Source: Carnobacterium iners
Lineage (GTDB): Bacteria > Bacillota > Bacilli > Lactobacillales > Carnobacteriaceae
Assembly (NCBI RefSeq): GCF_900177385.1
Contig: NZ_FXBJ01000002.1
Location: 1,926,001 to 1,990,000 of the forward strand
Direction: 5' to 3'
Length of the DNA: 64,000 bases
Shown: piece by piece, positions 22,081 to 36,390 of the stretch
Layout: each line of letters starts with the position of its first letter
How positions within the stretch are numbered: position 1 is the first letter of the stretch
Program-made: the position numbers and the translations under genes
Notes under the pieces: model-generated
Seen by the model: the letters and a program-made list of their open reading frames with translations, nothing else
Told to the model about the DNA's origin: nothing
Database searches by the model: none

Positions 22081-23859
22081 TTACTCTTCTATTTTTAATG
22101 TTCTAATCGAAATATCTTTTAATTGTGCCTCACTTACTAGATTCGGAGCTTTTGTCAATGGATCGACTGCTCGACCATTTTTAGGAAAGGCAATAACTTC
22201 GCGAATATTTTCTTCTCCTGCTAATAACATTGCGAAACGATCTAATCCTAAAGCAATCCCTCCATGAGGTGGGAAACCATACTCCAATGCCTCTAATAAG
22301 AAACCAAATTGCGCTTGTGCTTCTTTTTTTGTAAAACCTAATGCTGAAAACATTTTTTCTTGAATTTCACGAGAATGAATTCGCAATGATCCACCACCTA
22401 GTTCGTAGCCATTTAAAACAATATCATAAGCTTGTGCATGGACTTTTTCTGGTGCTGTTTCTAATAATGCAATATCTTCTTGTCTAGGCATGGTGAAAGG
22501 ATGATGAGCAGCACTAAAACGTTTAGCTTCTTCATCGTATTCTAATAACGGCCAATCAACAATCCATAGGAAAGCAAATACAGATTTATCAATTAAGTCT
22601 AATTCTTTTGCTAACTTAGAGCGAAGTGCTCCTAATGCATCTGACACAACTGATTTTTTATCCGCAACAAATAATAATAAATCACCAGGTTCCGCTTCTA
22701 AACGACGGATTAAGTCTTCTGGATTCTCTTTAAAGAATTTAGCGATAGGCCCTTTTAATTCATCTTTTTCTACTTTTAACCAGGCTAAACCTTTTGCGCC
22801 ATAGATGGAAACAAACTCTCCCAGAGCATCGATATCTTTTCGGGAAAATTTATCTGCTAATCCTTTAACATTAATAGCTTTAACTTCTCCACCGTTAGAT
22901 ACAGCTCCACTAAAGACTTTGAATTCAGAATCTTTAACTAAATCACTGATTTGAATAAGTTCTAAACCAAAACGAACATCAGGTTTATCGCTACCAAAAC
23001 GATTTACCGCCTCTTCATAGCTCATTTGTGGAAAAGGTCTGGGTATATCAATGCCTTTTGTATCCTTCATCACTTTAACTAACATTTCTTCTGTAAAACT
23101 TTGAATTTCATCCGCTTCTAAAAAGCTTGTTTCGATATCGATTTGAGTAAATTCTGGTTGACGATCCCCACGCAGATCTTCGTCTCTAAAACAACGAACG
23201 ATTTGATAATAACGATCGAAGCCTGCTCCCATTAATAATTGTTTAAATAATTGTGGAGATTGAGGCAAGGCGTAAAAATGACCCGGATGCACACGGGAAG
23301 GAACTAAATAATCACGAGCACCTTCAGGAGTTGATTTTGTCAAATAAGGTGTTTCGATATCAATAAATTCTTTGTTATCTAAATAGTTACGAACAGATTG
23401 AGTCATTTTGTGTCGTAGCATGAAATTTTTAGTCATTTCTGGACGTCTTAAGTCTAAATAGCGATATTCTAGCCTTTTATCATCTGAAACAGATACACCA
23501 TCTTCAATATAAAATGGTGTTGTTTTTGATTCATTTAAAACAGTTATTTCTTCTACTTCAACTTCTAATTCTCCAGTAGCAATATTTTTATTGATAACAT
23601 TCTCATCACGTGCGACTACTTTTCCTTTTATTTCAAGAACGTATTCATTACGAACAGATTCTGCAATAGCTAATGCTTTTTTTGAAAAAACAGGATTAAA
23701 AACAACTTGAATAATACCTTCTCTATCTCGTAGATCGATAAAGATTAAATCACCCAAATCGCGTCTCTTTTGAACCCAACCTTTTAAAATTACTGTTTGG
23801 CCTAATAAATCTTTTGAAACTCTTCCGCAATATTCTGTGCGTCTTGCCATTTTTTTCAA
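22081..23859 (-). CDS. aspS: Aspartate--tRNA ligase
   Basis: Class IIb synthetase of 592 residues, the bacterial-type length including the GAD insertion domain (about 290-420). The N-terminal OB fold binds the anticodon ([20 protein letters not shown]). Motif 2 is visible as [17 protein letters not shown], and motif 3 as [12 protein letters not shown] near the C-terminus. It lies 13 bases downstream of hisS in one operon under a shared T-box, and the operon ends at a strong hairpin. Confidence 0.98.
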
Positions 23860-23872
23860 CTCCTAATATCGT

Positions 23873-25198
23873 CTATTTTTCTTTATTAAAAAAATCGTTA
23901 AATGCTGTCATGTCTGTTGTCTTCACATTAAACACTTTTTCGAAATCTTTATAAATCTCTTTTAATTTTACACTTGATTCCGTATTGTTTTTCATCACTT
24001 TAAAGTTAACTTCCCCATTACTTAACTCATCTTCACCAATTGTCAAAACAACTTTAGCATTTAACTTAGAAGCTGTTTTAAATTGAGCTTTTGCTTTTCG
24101 ATCAAAATAATCCCGATCTGCAGAAAATCCTGCTTGACGAATCGTTTGCACTAATTTTAATGTCTCAATACTTGTTGATTCTCCTAAGCCAACAACGTAA
24201 ACATCTACTTCGTGTGCATTAGGTATCTCAATTTCTTCTGCTTCTAAAGTTAAGATTAATCTTTCTAAACCTAAAGCGAAACCAAATCCAGGAGTAGTAG
24301 GTCCTCCAATTTCTTCTACAAGACCATCGTATCGCCCACCAGCACAGATCGTTGTAATGGCTCCAAATCCAGGCGCATCACTCATGATTTCAAAAATAGT
24401 ATGGTTGTAATAATCTAATCCCCTTACCATATTGCTATCAATTTGGTAAGGAATGGCTAATACATCTAACATTTTTTTTACCGCTTCAAAGTGATTTTTT
24501 GATTCTTCGTTTAAATAATCTAAAATAGAAGGAGCATCTTTAACGATCTCTTGATCATTTTTATTTTTACTATCTAACACGCGCAAAGGATTTTTATGCA
24601 ATCTAATTTGTGACTCTTCACTTAATTGATCAAAATGTGGTTCCAAATAAGCAATTAGTGCTTCACGGTAAGCTTTTCTACTTTCTTTATCTCCAAGCGA
24701 ATTAATGATTAAAGAGAAGTGTTTTAAACCAAGCTCATTAAACAAATCCATTGCTAGCGACATCGTTTCAACGTCAATCGCCGGATTCATGCTACCGAAT
24801 ACCTCAACACCTAATTGATGGAATTGCCTCATACGACCGCCTTGTGGTCGTTCATAACGAAACATTGGTCCCATATAATAAACTTTATAGGGTTTTGCAT
24901 ATTCTGGTCCAAATAATTTATTTTCAACGTAAGCACGAACAACTGAAGCTGTCCCCTCTGGACGAAGAGACATATGGCGTTTGCCTTTATCGTGAAAATC
25001 ATACATTTCTTTAGAAACAATATCACTTGTCTCCCCTACTCCTCTTGAAAATAGGTCATAACTTTCAAAAATTGGTGTTCTAATTTCGCTAAATTGATAA
25101 TCTCCTAAAATGACTTTTGCTGTTTCTTCTATATACTGCCATTTTAATGAATTAGACGGCAACAAGTCAGCTGTTCCTTTTGGTCTTTGAATTTGCAT
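23873..25198 (-). CDS. hisS: Histidine--tRNA ligase
   Basis: Class II synthetase of 441 residues. Motif 1/2 region [14 protein letters not shown] and [16 protein letters not shown], the histidine loop [14 protein letters not shown] and AGGRYDGLV, and motif 3 [11 protein letters not shown] are all present. The C-terminal anticodon domain begins about residue 330 ([11 protein letters not shown]). First gene of hisS-aspS. The leader directly upstream is a T-box whose specifier appears to be an aspartate codon (see finding), so HisS synthesis may follow tRNA-Asp charging. Confidence 0.98.
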
Positions 25199-25244: not shown

Positions 25245-25489
25245 ATAAAAAAAGCCCTTATTCCATAACGGAATAAGGACGAGTTTAATTTATTTCTCGT
25301 GGTACCACCTTTTTTCGAGAGCAAAGCTCTCCTCAACGATTAACGCTCGCAACGTAATAGCTTTTCACCATTAACCCTCAAGAATGTCATTCAGATTTAT
25401 AATGGGAACCATTTTCAGCCAAGATGGTCCTTTCTGTTTGCACATTATTAAACTTACTATTTCTCTCAACGGGTATTTATGTTCTAATA
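25245..25489 (-). promoter_or_regulatory. T-box leader of hisS-aspS, aspartate specifier
   Basis: T-box AGGTGGTACCACG lies at about 25298-25310. The terminator arms are CCTTATTCC (25256-25264) and GGAATAAGG (25270-25278), followed by a T8 tract on the minus strand. Stem III is GAGAGC-TTT-GCTCTC just before the T-box. In stem I the AGUA and GAA loop elements are visible. Aligned to the glyQ leader (GAA, one base, specifier, A, TTCT), the specifier is GAC at 25386-25388, an aspartate codon. Confidence 0.9.
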
Positions 25490-25494
25490 GGGTT

Positions 25495-25523
25495 ACATTA
25501 CAAGAAAGCTTTGTACTTGTCAA
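25495..25523 (-). promoter_or_regulatory. hisS-aspS promoter
   Basis: TTGACA (25518-25523), 17-base spacer, TAATGT (25495-25500) on the minus strand. Confidence 0.8.
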
Positions 25524-32712: not shown

Positions 32713-33819
32713 CTAAGTCGGTATCAAAAGATTAAACCATTCTTCTGCCGGTTGAAATAACAGATAACGAAAAAATCGTTTGATTTGGAAAACAGACTGG
32801 TTACTTTTTGTTTTTAACTGAATCAAATAGGTTAATAAACTGGCAATCATGGCTAAAATCAGCTGATTGACAACCCCTTTTTCACTTCTTGAAAAAAACT
32901 TTTTAATCGTCATATGTTGTTTAATATGCTTGAAGAACAGCTCTATTTGCCAACGTGCTTTATACATTTCTGCAATGTCAGTAAAGGAGCAGTCAAAACG
33001 ATTGGTAATAAACTGGAGAGTTTTCCCCTTTTTATCTTGAACGGTTACTAAACGAAATCTGGACGTTAGATGGTTCTGAGCACCTAATGCGACCATTTGG
33101 TCGCTGATAACGGACTCACTCTTGGAAGCTACTAATGGTTCTAAAACATGAACTTTTGTATTCTTTTTGATTCTTGTCACAAAGAAGTAGCCCTGCGAGT
33201 GCATCGTATCTAATCGTTCAAAATCAAGGTAACCGCGATCAAACACATAAGTCGCTTCAGGTTGATTAACCAATACTTCTAACTGATTTGTATCGTGCTC
33301 GACGGCGTTAGTCAGTGTAAATTCATCTGGGTAAAGATGGTCATTATCCATAAAGCAGAGTTTTAAGTGAAGCTTAACTCCTGATTTTGTTTTACGAAAA
33401 TCAGCCCATTGATAAAGGTTTTGGTTAAGTGAAAACGTCGAAGAATCAATTAGGTAGAGACTATTTCGTTTCGTTACGGGCCTTTTATTTTTAGCCTGAC
33501 TAACTAGCTGACTAAAAATGGCTAAAAGAATCTCTGAATCTATTTTTGAGAGAGTTCTAGAGAGCTGAGAATAACTGATACTAGTCATACCCATTTCTTT
33601 TTGAAGTTCTTTCGAAACAAAAGCCGCATCCATCTCTCTAAGACTTTCTTTTTCGTCATTGATTCCATGAAGAAAAAGTTGAAGAGCTTGAGAGAAACTA
33701 AGTTTCTTATGGTATTTATCAAAGTCAACAATCTTTTTTTGAATAGGGCTTGGTAAAAGATTTAGCTTAATGGAAGAAAACCATTTATTAAAAGCAGAAT
33801 TTGTTTTATACTTATCCAT
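32713..33819 (-). CDS. IS4-family DDE transposase
   Basis: Transposase of 368 residues with the complete IS4 catalytic set: Asp in YLIDSSTF, Asp in VFDRGYLDF, and Glu in the Y-(2)-R-(3)-E-(6)-K signature YKARWQIELFFKHIK. The start is taken at ATG 33817-33819, preceded by AAAAGGA at 8 bases. A 12-residue upstream extension exists but lacks a ribosome site. No frameshift or stop is present, so it may be active. I cannot name the IS subtype from sequence alone. Confidence 0.93.
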   Translation of the reverse strand: MDKYKTNSAFNKWFSSIKLNLLPSPIQKKIVDFDKYHKKLSFSQALQLFLHGINDEKESLREMDAAFVSKELQKEMGMTSISYSQLSRTLSKIDSEILLAIFSQLVSQAKNKRPVTKRNSLYLIDSSTFSLNQNLYQWADFRKTKSGVKLHLKLCFMDNDHLYPDEFTLTNAVEHDTNQLEVLVNQPEATYVFDRGYLDFERLDTMHSQGYFFVTRIKKNTKVHVLEPLVASKSESVISDQMVALGAQNHLTSRFRLVTVQDKKGKTLQFITNRFDCSFTDIAEMYKARWQIELFFKHIKQHMTIKKFFSRSEKGVVNQLILAMIASLLTYLIQLKTKSNQSVFQIKRFFRYLLFQPAEEWFNLLIPT

Positions 33820-33920
33820 GTGTTGGGTCCTTTTTATTGGTCTTGGATGAGTCATCTGAGTTCAGTATAAAGGACTTTTTTGCATATTGGAATAATATAA
33901 ACAAATTTGTGAAACACATA

Positions 33921-34532: not shown

Positions 34533-36390
34533 GTTCGCCCAGCATGGGCAAACTCTAACAGGTGAAAGTCCTGAGTGCGACCGATTAGCGGTAAGCATGT
34601 AGCTAAAAGCAAGGGTGTCCACCGTGAGGTGGAATCTGAAGGAAGCTCGAGGCAAATCTCTGGTCTGACGAACAGAAATCATATAGGAGGCAGTGCACGA
34701 GGATAAGGTTGCAAAAGAAGCTGAAGTCCAATAGCTAATGTATCAATCGTGTGATGTAGATATGGCAGATAGATGGAGAGAAAGAGTTCGCACCTTAACT
34801 GGGGAGGTCTTCTGTTCTTATTTCAAAAACTTGTAGTGATACAAGCCTGAGACAGGAGAAGTCAGCAGAAGCCGTAGTAGTGAAGACAGCTAGTGAAAGT
34901 TAGACAGAGCGAAGGGCTGAACCGTTTTATCGTTATGGAAATCAATATTGGAAGAGGAAATAGACCGCTGGTCAAAAGACGAGAAAGTGGATACCGACTT
35001 CACGAGAAGGAAAGGAAATAACAAACATGTATGAAAGAAAAATCCTTGAGCGTATCTTAGATAAAGAGAATTTGACTGTAGCATTCGAACAAGTAAGACG
35101 AAATAAAGGTGTCGCAGGTGTGGATGGCATGACAATTGACGAGCTAGGAATATATTTTCTTCGAAACAAAGAAGAAGTTATGGCTCAGATTCGTCAAAGA
35201 AACTACCAAACCTCACCCGTTCTTCGAGTGGAGATTCCTAAACCAAATGGTGATGTTCGTTTACTAGGAATCCCGACAGTTAAAGACCGTATGATTCAAC
35301 AAGCCATTGCACAAGTATTGACTCCCTTATTCGATAAAGGTTTTAGTAACTATAGTTACGGTTTTCGACCAAACCGTCAAGCTGAAATGGCGATTAATCA
35401 GGCGTTAGTGTACTTCAATGAAGGATATGACTGGATTGTTGATATCGATCTTGAACGTTTCTTTGATACGGTGCAACATGACCGATTGATGAATTTAGTC
35501 TCTAGAACAATCTCCGATGGAGATGTAATTTCGCTGATTCGTAAATTTCTTGTCAGTGGAGTACAAGTTAATGGGATTATTCAAGATACTAGCATTGGAA
35601 CTCCGCAAGGAGGGAACCTTTCACCGCTATTGAGCAATATCATGCTTAATGAACTTGATAAGGAACTGGAAAAACGAAACCTCCGTTTCGTTCGTTACGC
35701 TGATGATTGTATCATTATGGTTAAGAGTGAAATGTCAGCGAGAAGAGTGATGCGTTCCGTTACAAAATTTATCGAAGAAAAGTTAGGATTGATTGTCAAT
35801 AGTACAAAATCTAAGATTACGAAGCCAAATAATCCAGAAATGAAATTTTTAGGATTCGGTTTTTACCGAGATTTTAATAAGAAAACCTATCAAGCGAAAC
35901 CACATAAAATCTCAGTAGAAAACTTTCGATATAAACTTAAAGTACTTACACGTAAGAATTGGAGTATTGATACGAAATATCAAGTGGAACGACTGAATCA
36001 AGTGATTCGAGGGTGGATAAACTACTATAAAATAGGTTCAATGAAAAGCATTTTAAAGAAAATTGACTCTCATTTGAGAGTCCGTCTCAGAATGTGTATT
36101 TGGCATAAATGGAAAACAGCTAAGAATCGGCGAAAGAACTTAATAAAATTAGGGATGGACAAATACAGTGCCTATAAAAATAGTCACACTAGTAAGGGTG
36201 TCGTACGTATTGCCTATTCTTGGATTTTAACAACGACTATCACAAACAAGAGACTTGCCCAATTTGGCCTAGTCTCTTGTGTAGAGCATTACGATAAAAT
36301 ACATGTTTAGTATAAAATGGAACCGCCGTATACCGAACGGTACGTACGGTGGTGTGAGAGGTCGGAGCCGTGAGGCTCCTCCTACTCGAT
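34533..36390 (+). mobile_element. Group II intron
   Basis: Retroelement of 1858 bp. It begins GTTCGCCCAGC and ends CTACTCGAT. The 5' ribozyme domains occupy about 34533-35026; the protein gene lies in domain IV. Domain V is a hairpin at about 36322-36353 (ACCGCCGTA / TACGGTGGT arms). Domain VI has arms GGAGCC (36364-36369) and GGCTCC (36374-36379), with a candidate branch A at 36384, seventh from the end. It is inserted antisense to the host gene. Immediately upstream lies a CAAAAGAAAA/TTTTCTTTTG hairpin followed by T6, a site like those preferred by class C introns. Confidence 0.93.
35027..36310 (+). CDS. ltrA: Group II intron reverse transcriptase/maturase
   Basis: Intron-encoded protein of 427 residues that assists splicing and copies the intron RNA into a new site by target-primed reverse transcription. 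RT motifs in order: NKGVAGVDGMTI, VEIPKPNGDVRLLGIPTV, YSYGFRPNRQAE, IVDIDLERFFDTV, GTPQGGNLSPLLSNI, and the catalytic FVRYADDCII. The maturase (X) region covers about 300-400. No HNH endonuclease domain follows. The ATG is preceded by AAGGAAATAAC. All catalytic residues are intact, so the intron may be mobile. Confidence 0.96.
   Translation: MYERKILERILDKENLTVAFEQVRRNKGVAGVDGMTIDELGIYFLRNKEEVMAQIRQRNYQTSPVLRVEIPKPNGDVRLLGIPTVKDRMIQQAIAQVLTPLFDKGFSNYSYGFRPNRQAEMAINQALVYFNEGYDWIVDIDLERFFDTVQHDRLMNLVSRTISDGDVISLIRKFLVSGVQVNGIIQDTSIGTPQGGNLSPLLSNIMLNELDKELEKRNLRFVRYADDCIIMVKSEMSARRVMRSVTKFIEEKLGLIVNSTKSKITKPNNPEMKFLGFGFYRDFNKKTYQAKPHKISVENFRYKLKVLTRKNWSIDTKYQVERLNQVIRGWINYYKIGSMKSILKKIDSHLRVRLRMCIWHKWKTAKNRRKNLIKLGMDKYSAYKNSHTSKGVVRIAYSWILTTTITNKRLAQFGLVSCVEHYDKIHV

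Follow-up and report, generated by a model that had tools for sequence, protein, structure and literature searches.

The T-box leader of the hisS-aspS operon in Carnobacterium iners appears to sense tRNA-Asp rather than tRNA-His

T-box-controlled hisS-aspS operons carry GACAC in the specifier loop, according to the relevant part of PMC5313534, which deals with lactobacilli and bacilli and credits Gutierrez-Preciado 2009 with the suggestion that this sequence mainly interacts with tRNA-Asp. The aspartate reading is already published and is contradicted elsewhere, as far as the excerpts of PMC5313534 and PMC7927825 go. In the extracts of PMC2494555, hisS is not mentioned in the main text, and the legend of one figure leaves room for genes in second place whose specificity is not that of the T-box. 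His-specific T-boxes have been described for his operons and his transporters, and tandem His T-boxes are reported in five Enterococcus species (PMC9413887, in part). The leader described here shares with the hisS-aspS T-box of PMC5313534 the operon, the specifier, the His codon overlapping it and the tRNA-Asp proposal, with GACAU in place of GACAC, and nothing essential differs between the two in what that part of the source sets out. The leaders of the his operons and transporters (PMC9413887, same portion), on the other hand, are T-boxes too but have CAC in the canonical register. A literature search beyond Gutierrez-Preciado 2009 and Vitreschak 2008 found no account of GAC leaders lacking a His codon, nor of an asparagine reading of the hisS-aspS leader. 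What is added here, from comparison of sequences, is a set of GAC leaders that lack a His codon in the loop, covariation at the third base of the shifted codon and counts of the base expected to face the tRNA acceptor end.

The leader lies in a stretch of 64,000 nucleotides of the Carnobacterium iners genome (hereafter the window), and its features are collected in Table 1. The first-pass annotation, made from the letters alone, had claimed a T-box upstream of hisS, and this is upheld by an Rfam score above the gathering score and by the NCBIfam matches of the two genes downstream, whose identities as hisS and aspS are certain; the same T-box was recovered in a genome-wide RF00230 search. The listed aspS ORF starts 13 nt past the end of hisS with a TTG, and its true start may be further downstream. 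The second hexamer of the candidate promoter matches TATAAT in three of six positions, and a promoter consensus scan of the window did not return the TTGACA site; TTGACA and TTCTTGTAATNT recur by eye in the leaders of relatives, among those listed. The terminator folds at -16.3 kcal/mol, far better than shuffled sequences (z -6.2), and in the predicted structures the UGGN element sits in an antiterminator that would compete with this terminator, as in a T-box. Elsewhere in the window, group II intron domains occur at 34618-36390 (plus strand) and 32713-33855 (minus strand), close to an ORF that we take to be transposase-like.

Table 1. Features of the hisS-aspS leader and operon in the window
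Feature	Position	Strand	Basis or remark
T-box leader, hisS and aspS	leader 25523 to 25247	-	upstream-to-downstream order, minus strand
Likely promoter: TTGACA 25523-25518, 17 nt spacer, TAATGT 25500-25495	25495..25523	-	by eye
T-box, Rfam RF00230	25272..25478	-	100.1 bits, gathering score 93, E 7.3e-21
Stem I, with specifier loop and apical region	25372..25476	-	Rfam alignment, fold
Specifier GAC (Asp)	25386..25388	-	Rfam alignment, fold, hisS Stem I model
A after the specifier (25385) and first paired U (25384), the third base of the shifted 'CAU'	25384..25385	-	fold, covariation
T-box sequence GGUGGUACC, with UGGU 25307-25304 for the tRNA acceptor end	25301..25309	-	Rfam alignment
Antiterminator	25272..25314	-	Rfam alignment; alone folds weakly, -5.2 kcal/mol, z -0.47
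Intrinsic terminator, which would compete with the antiterminator	25247..25280	-	hairpin 25280-25254 and T run
hisS, histidine--tRNA ligase, first gene	23873..25198	-	TIGR00442, 512 bits, cut-off 287
aspS, aspartate--tRNA ligase, second gene	22081..23859	-	TIGR00459, 831 bits, cut-off 374

The question of which tRNA is read turns on the register of the specifier. The RF00230 alignment fills the specifier columns with GAC, followed by one A, and places GAAUGACA on the 3' side of the specifier loop, opposite GAAauuca of the model, with high posterior probability. An alignment-free fold of Stem I gives the same 8-nt 3' internal loop (GAAUGACA, 25392-25385) and pairs the U of 'CAU'. Because alignment and unaligned fold both give this loop, the specifier is taken as GAC, an aspartate codon; the energy of the fold is no better than that of shuffled sequences (z -0.43), so the fold serves as a placement and not as a test of significance. 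The frame, GAA-U-GAC-A-UUCU, is that of the glyQ leader in the same window (8492-8321, minus strand; E 3e-17 and 86.0 bits, short of the 93 needed), which in the same register reads GAA-A-GGC-A-UUCU and differs from the hisS leader in its GGC, its UGGA and a shorter linker between Stem I and antiterminator. Through the pattern common to both leaders, the first-pass annotation had placed GAC in the specifier position, with no CAC there and CAT only by a shift of two bases. Position and frame proved exact, the loop holds no CAC, and the shifted U falls in a helix. It had also proposed placement by the RF00230 covariance model and had named, as an outcome that would overturn its reading, a fold with CAU in the specifier loop; model alignment and fold both give GAC. 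In the TBDB convention, the specifier occupies positions 2 to 4 from the loop end and frames -1, 0 and +1 are considered (PMC7778990, in part); GAC is then frame 0, and CAU would be frame +2, outside that range. The leader therefore has at the canonical position one of the two codons (GAC or GAU) of an Asp-specific T-box and neither CAC nor CAU, the only candidate for the latter being displaced by two bases and having its U in the stem.

The other T-boxes of the genome serve as a control. RF00230 gave 17 matches genome-wide, 12 over the cut-off and four more at 71 to 92 bits; L017, at 10.9 bits, was not accepted as a real T-box. By eye, the specifiers of the 15 T-boxes other than the hisS leader read Val GUA, Leu CUC, Arg CGC, His CAC, Tyr UAC, Phe UUC, Ile AUC, His CAC, Met AUG, Cys UGC, Ser UCC, Trp UGG, Thr ACC, Gly GGC and Ala GCU, the genes being named mostly from translations read by eye. 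R1, a model of Stem I trained exclusively on hisS leaders, matched the window leader, which is in its training set, at 75.5 bits (E 1.3e-12) and recovered 14 of the 15 others with filters off and E up to 0.14, missing serS. Its codon agreed with the one read by eye in 12 of these 14, with pheS and alaS slipped, and for 11 of the 12 the amino acid is fixed by the gene product (identified by eye), the twelfth belonging to a transporter. The base two after the specifier is C or U in all 16 T-boxes of the genome (by eye), and the argS, tyrS, leuS, pheS and glyQS leaders likewise 'contain' CAC or CAU. Since an NNC specifier followed by A and a pyrimidine produces CAC or CAU by coincidence two bases further along, the 'CAU' of the hisS leader is expected from the architecture.

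CAC is the specifier of two leaders in the genome, those of the his operon (L008) and of an amino-acid ABC transporter (L004), and hisS is present as a single gene at E<=1e-80. With a lone hisS and CAC T-boxes elsewhere, histidine shortage seems to be sensed at the his operon and transporter leaders and not at hisS. Past the his-operon T-box, the HisB ORF (L008, 676-1053, minus strand) encodes 125 aa, against 190-205 positions in most matching HisB models, and is possibly broken. Two tandem T-boxes with a CAC-type loop were seen upstream of a transporter-like gene at four further loci (L288, L289, L290 and L300).

Conservation of the specifier was followed across 192 loci around hisS, of which 52 came from genome searches, 60 were fetched stretches and 80 were named records. 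A T-box regular expression found 121 leaders, of which 91 were left after eight irregular ones were set aside and near-duplicates removed; 60 of these were hand-picked for the alignment A2, which is also the training set of R1, and irregular leaders such as L055, L099, L177, L227 and L229 are outside it. R1 gave 142 matches at E<=1, of which the 134 at E<=0.01 were counted and eight above that value excluded (L099, L105, L131, L137, L156, L165, L176 and L185); at L218 and L233 the upstream sequence was too short. At the canonical position, the 134 leaders have GAC in 85, AAC in 48, ACA in one (L225, GGACAC, a one-base slip) and a His codon in none. The 74 leaders outside the training set divide into 48 GAC, 25 AAC and one ACA, and when two pairs with identical Stem I (L084/L086 and L143/L215) are collapsed, 132 distinct leaders are left, with 83 GAC, 48 AAC and one ACA. 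All 18 leaders from the family of the window have GAC (GACAU in 10, GACAC in eight) and UGGU, and aspS is the next gene in each.

The overlapping CAY, present as CAU in the window, is kept in 67 of the 85 GAC leaders, which counts against an Asp-only reading. On the other hand, a direct search for CAC or CAU found no His codon anywhere in the loop of the other 18 (GACAA 7, GACUU 3, GACCU 2, GACGU 2, GACCC 2, GACAG 1 and GACGA 1). Six of them come from Jeotgalibaca, Aneurinibacillus, Oceanobacillus damuensis, two Paenibacillus and Exiguobacterium, and the remaining 12 from genomes of seven families. These leaders indicate that the Asp codon is retained where the overlapping His codon is lost.

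Covariation bears on the same point, since the third base of the shifted codon is the first base of the lower stem. In the 60 leaders of A2, the seven lower-stem pairs are 93.8% paired, and pairing falls to at most 53.9% when the partner is slid along; cells with both sides changed number 107, against 28.2 in shuffles. The number of pairs with any double change, on the other hand, gives no separation in A2 (7 against 6.1, reached by 170 of 500 shuffles), nor does the same measure on two model-fitted alignments. At the first pair past the loop, where the third base of 'CAY' lies, A2 has GC in 38, AU in 10, UA in one and other combinations in 11. The two larger alignments, which were fitted to the model and so lean towards its structure, have GC 45, AU 17, UA 2, GU 1 and other 10, and GC 34, AU 21 and other 8. 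Written as partner and base, the 85 GAC leaders show G-C 33, A-U 33, G-U 1, A-C 8 and others 10. Because the tested structure was read from the same sequences, most trust is placed in the slid control and the compensatory changes, by which the base after GACA covaries with its predicted stem partner.

The other point of contact with the tRNA is the base N of UGGN, which would face the discriminator. By strict count, 55 of the 85 GAC leaders have U there and 30 have C, and none has G or A. In this genome, the discriminator is G73 in all four tRNA-Asp genes and all three tRNA-Asn genes and C73 in both tRNA-His genes; CCA is not encoded behind the discriminator of these genes (L240-L251), a difference from the AAC-class genomes used for comparison. 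The UGGU of the window can pair with G73 of tRNA-Asp by a G.U wobble only. In the 13 non-His T-boxes besides hisS, N pairs by eye with the cognate discriminator in every case (Ser and Trp by G.U). The His-specifier leaders of the genome carry UGGU on the transporter and UGGA on the his operon, and neither pairs with C73, so that the N base cannot exclude His within this genome; used as an Asp/His discriminator inside one genome, UGGN gave no separation, and it is informative only across many leaders. Judged from these predicted pairings, N of UGGN is compatible with G73 of tRNA-Asp, and not with C73 of tRNA-His, throughout the 85 GAC leaders. Twenty leaders collected by similarity and reading CAC (18) or a slipped ACA (2), among them the his-operon leader of this genome (L285), have UGGA without exception, a count that is biased because most were seeded on letters that include UGGA; L294 and L299, found without the UGGA segment in the seed, have UGGA as well.

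The link of the leader to aspS is close among the loci sampled. All 134 leaders precede a hisS with aspS within 300 nt, and a leader at E<=0.01 is present at 134 of 160 loci with adjacent aspS against none of 30 without. Five of these 30 are streptococci by name and 15 belong to a single genus (g4), so that the count is not independent of phylogeny; at one of the 30 (L236), only 222 nt of downstream sequence is available. At the other 26 of the 160 adjacent loci, the R1 match is weak or absent, but some of these do carry a T-box according to Rfam or to inspection by eye. Rfam matches, below its cut-off, seven staphylococcal loci that R1 missed or scored weakly, and by eye a T-box is present in a few lactobacilli, which makes 134 a lower bound. 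Against a simple adjacency rule, Latilactobacillus fragifolii (L165, 3279-3373) has a weak GAC-like leader (E 0.93, GAGACAG, UGGU) before a hisS that is not followed by aspS within 3.5 kb. Downstream of hisS-aspS, 6S RNA was found at four of 10 loci (L189, L200, L204 and L212) and at all seven staphylococcal ones, some loci being too short for a decision; in the window, it is absent at the Rfam cut-off.

Taken at sequence level, where both the observation and its interpretation hold, the leader is very probably a standard transcriptional T-box of Asp specificity, with HisRS carried along as the product of the first gene. This is the tRNA-Asp rather than tRNA-His reading of the first-pass annotation, which the register, the GAC leaders without a His codon, the covariation and the UGGN counts all favor. 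What is proposed for tRNA binding, read-through and physiological response builds on the anatomy, the specifier register, the conservation and the covariation. The nascent Stem I would bind tRNA-Asp by GAC:GUC pairing in the specifier loop; the GCCA end of uncharged tRNA-Asp would pair with UGGU (G73.U wobble), the antiterminator would form and RNA polymerase would read through into hisS and aspS, and charged tRNA-Asp would leave the terminator to form. Both synthetases would follow aspartate charging, HisRS riding along on a sensor that belongs to aspS. A decayed, functionless leader might explain why the energies of Stem I and antiterminator are no better than those of shuffles and why UGGU pairs by wobble only, but the conserved parts are present with a score above the Rfam cut-off, the terminator is strong and all 18 leaders of the family retain GAC and UGGU, which makes decay the least credible of the alternatives.

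The harder case is a part for tRNA-His. A leader with two codons, in which tRNA-Asp would read GAC and tRNA-His would read CAU within GACAU, and which would make the operon respond to either shortage, would agree with the CAY overlap in 67 of 85 GAC and 48 of 48 AAC leaders. A T-box with two codons that binds two tRNAs has been published (Saad 2013), reportedly from Clostridium acetobutylicum, and is a precedent for one leader serving both. Lax reading does occur, since poor charging of tRNA-Asn partly induces the lysK T-box of Bacillus cereus, a leader made for tRNA-Lys (PMC2916919, in part). Unlike that T-box, the window leader has a second codon that runs into a helix and that is absent in 18 of 85 GAC leaders. 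Both codons would have to be accessible in the loop, but the last base of CAU is paired in the predicted fold and its column covaries, and NNC-A-Y yields a chance CAY in any T-box; we consider such a double sensor highly improbable. The same three points weigh on the reading implied by the name 'histidine T-box', a His sensor whose register is moved by two bases. That reading would suit hisS as the first gene, the name given to the S. aureus hisS-aspS leader (PMC7927825, in the portion concerned) and a general statement in the extracts of PMC2494555 that T-boxes before tRNA ligases invariably had a specifier matching the ligase. It has against it, in addition, that the acceptor base is never G or A in the 85 GAC leaders and that the 20 CAC-type leaders, mostly UGGA-seeded, all have UGGA, and it is even harder to credit than the double sensor.

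The window's leader belongs to the Asp class; the 48 leaders with AAC at the canonical position come mostly from Bacillaceae-type and Planococcaceae genera (for example, L074-L077, L106, L178, L179, L181, L189, L195, L197 from Halalkalibacterium halodurans, and L201). Their acceptor base is C or U in 30, mostly Bacillaceae-type genera by name and also L055, L229 and L234, and A in 18, namely six records of Planococcaceae genera and twelve genomes of family f8, presumably Planococcaceae (these 18 include L109, L113, L118, L121, L125, L203, L204, L207, L212, L214 and eight more). Twelve AAC-class genomes were searched, and tRNA-Asn has G73 in all 11 that were read, so that AAC with UGGC or UGGU fits tRNA-Asn and AAC with UGGA does not. 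In the UGGA genomes G045, G060, G155 and G251, tRNA-Asn and tRNA-Asp have G73, and tRNA-His has C73 where read (G045 and G155); for the AAC leaders with UGGA, no reading appears to fit fully. In Staphylococcaceae, Rfam finds a T-box at all seven loci, each below the cut-off (61.8 to 92.5 bits) and none among the counted 134, and by eye these leaders are compatible with AAC and UGGC. The Rfam alignment of L137 and L153 is one base off the by-eye reading (ACA against AAC), so for staphylococci the claim is limited to the missing His codon in four of the seven leaders (L137, L153, L154 and L155), which by eye have UGGC and no His codon in the loop. The name in print for the S. aureus leader, 'histidine T-box', does not agree with these four.

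The AAC class, perhaps including the staphylococci, may sense tRNA-Asn. AspRS of Bacillus subtilis and B. halodurans, studied by Nair in 2016, reportedly also charges tRNA-Asn. Residues 31 and 81 of AspRS are determinants of tRNA-Asn recognition. By eye, Gly at '81' is commoner at AAC than at GAC loci, but it tracks phylogeny and was rejected as a correlate of specifier class; Halalkalibacterium halodurans (L197) has Ser there. The genome of the window encodes its own AsnRS (529 bits). We put forward, tentatively and as possible rather than probable, that in the sampled Bacilli the hisS-aspS sensor reads the tRNA substrates of AspRS and never tRNA-His, with GAC giving way to AAC in many Bacillaceae and staphylococci because AspRS charges tRNA-Asn.

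T-box specificity is used in gene annotation, and across this widespread operon family the rule that the specifier names the first gene fails. The published names for the hisS-aspS leader disagree, and leaders without any His codon provide a clean sequence argument for aspartate. If the AAC class does sense tRNA-Asn, the evolution of T-boxes would be linked to the set of tRNAs that AspRS accepts. AspRS would then be expected to rise when asparagine runs short and to supply the transamidation route, and HisRS would rise along with it.
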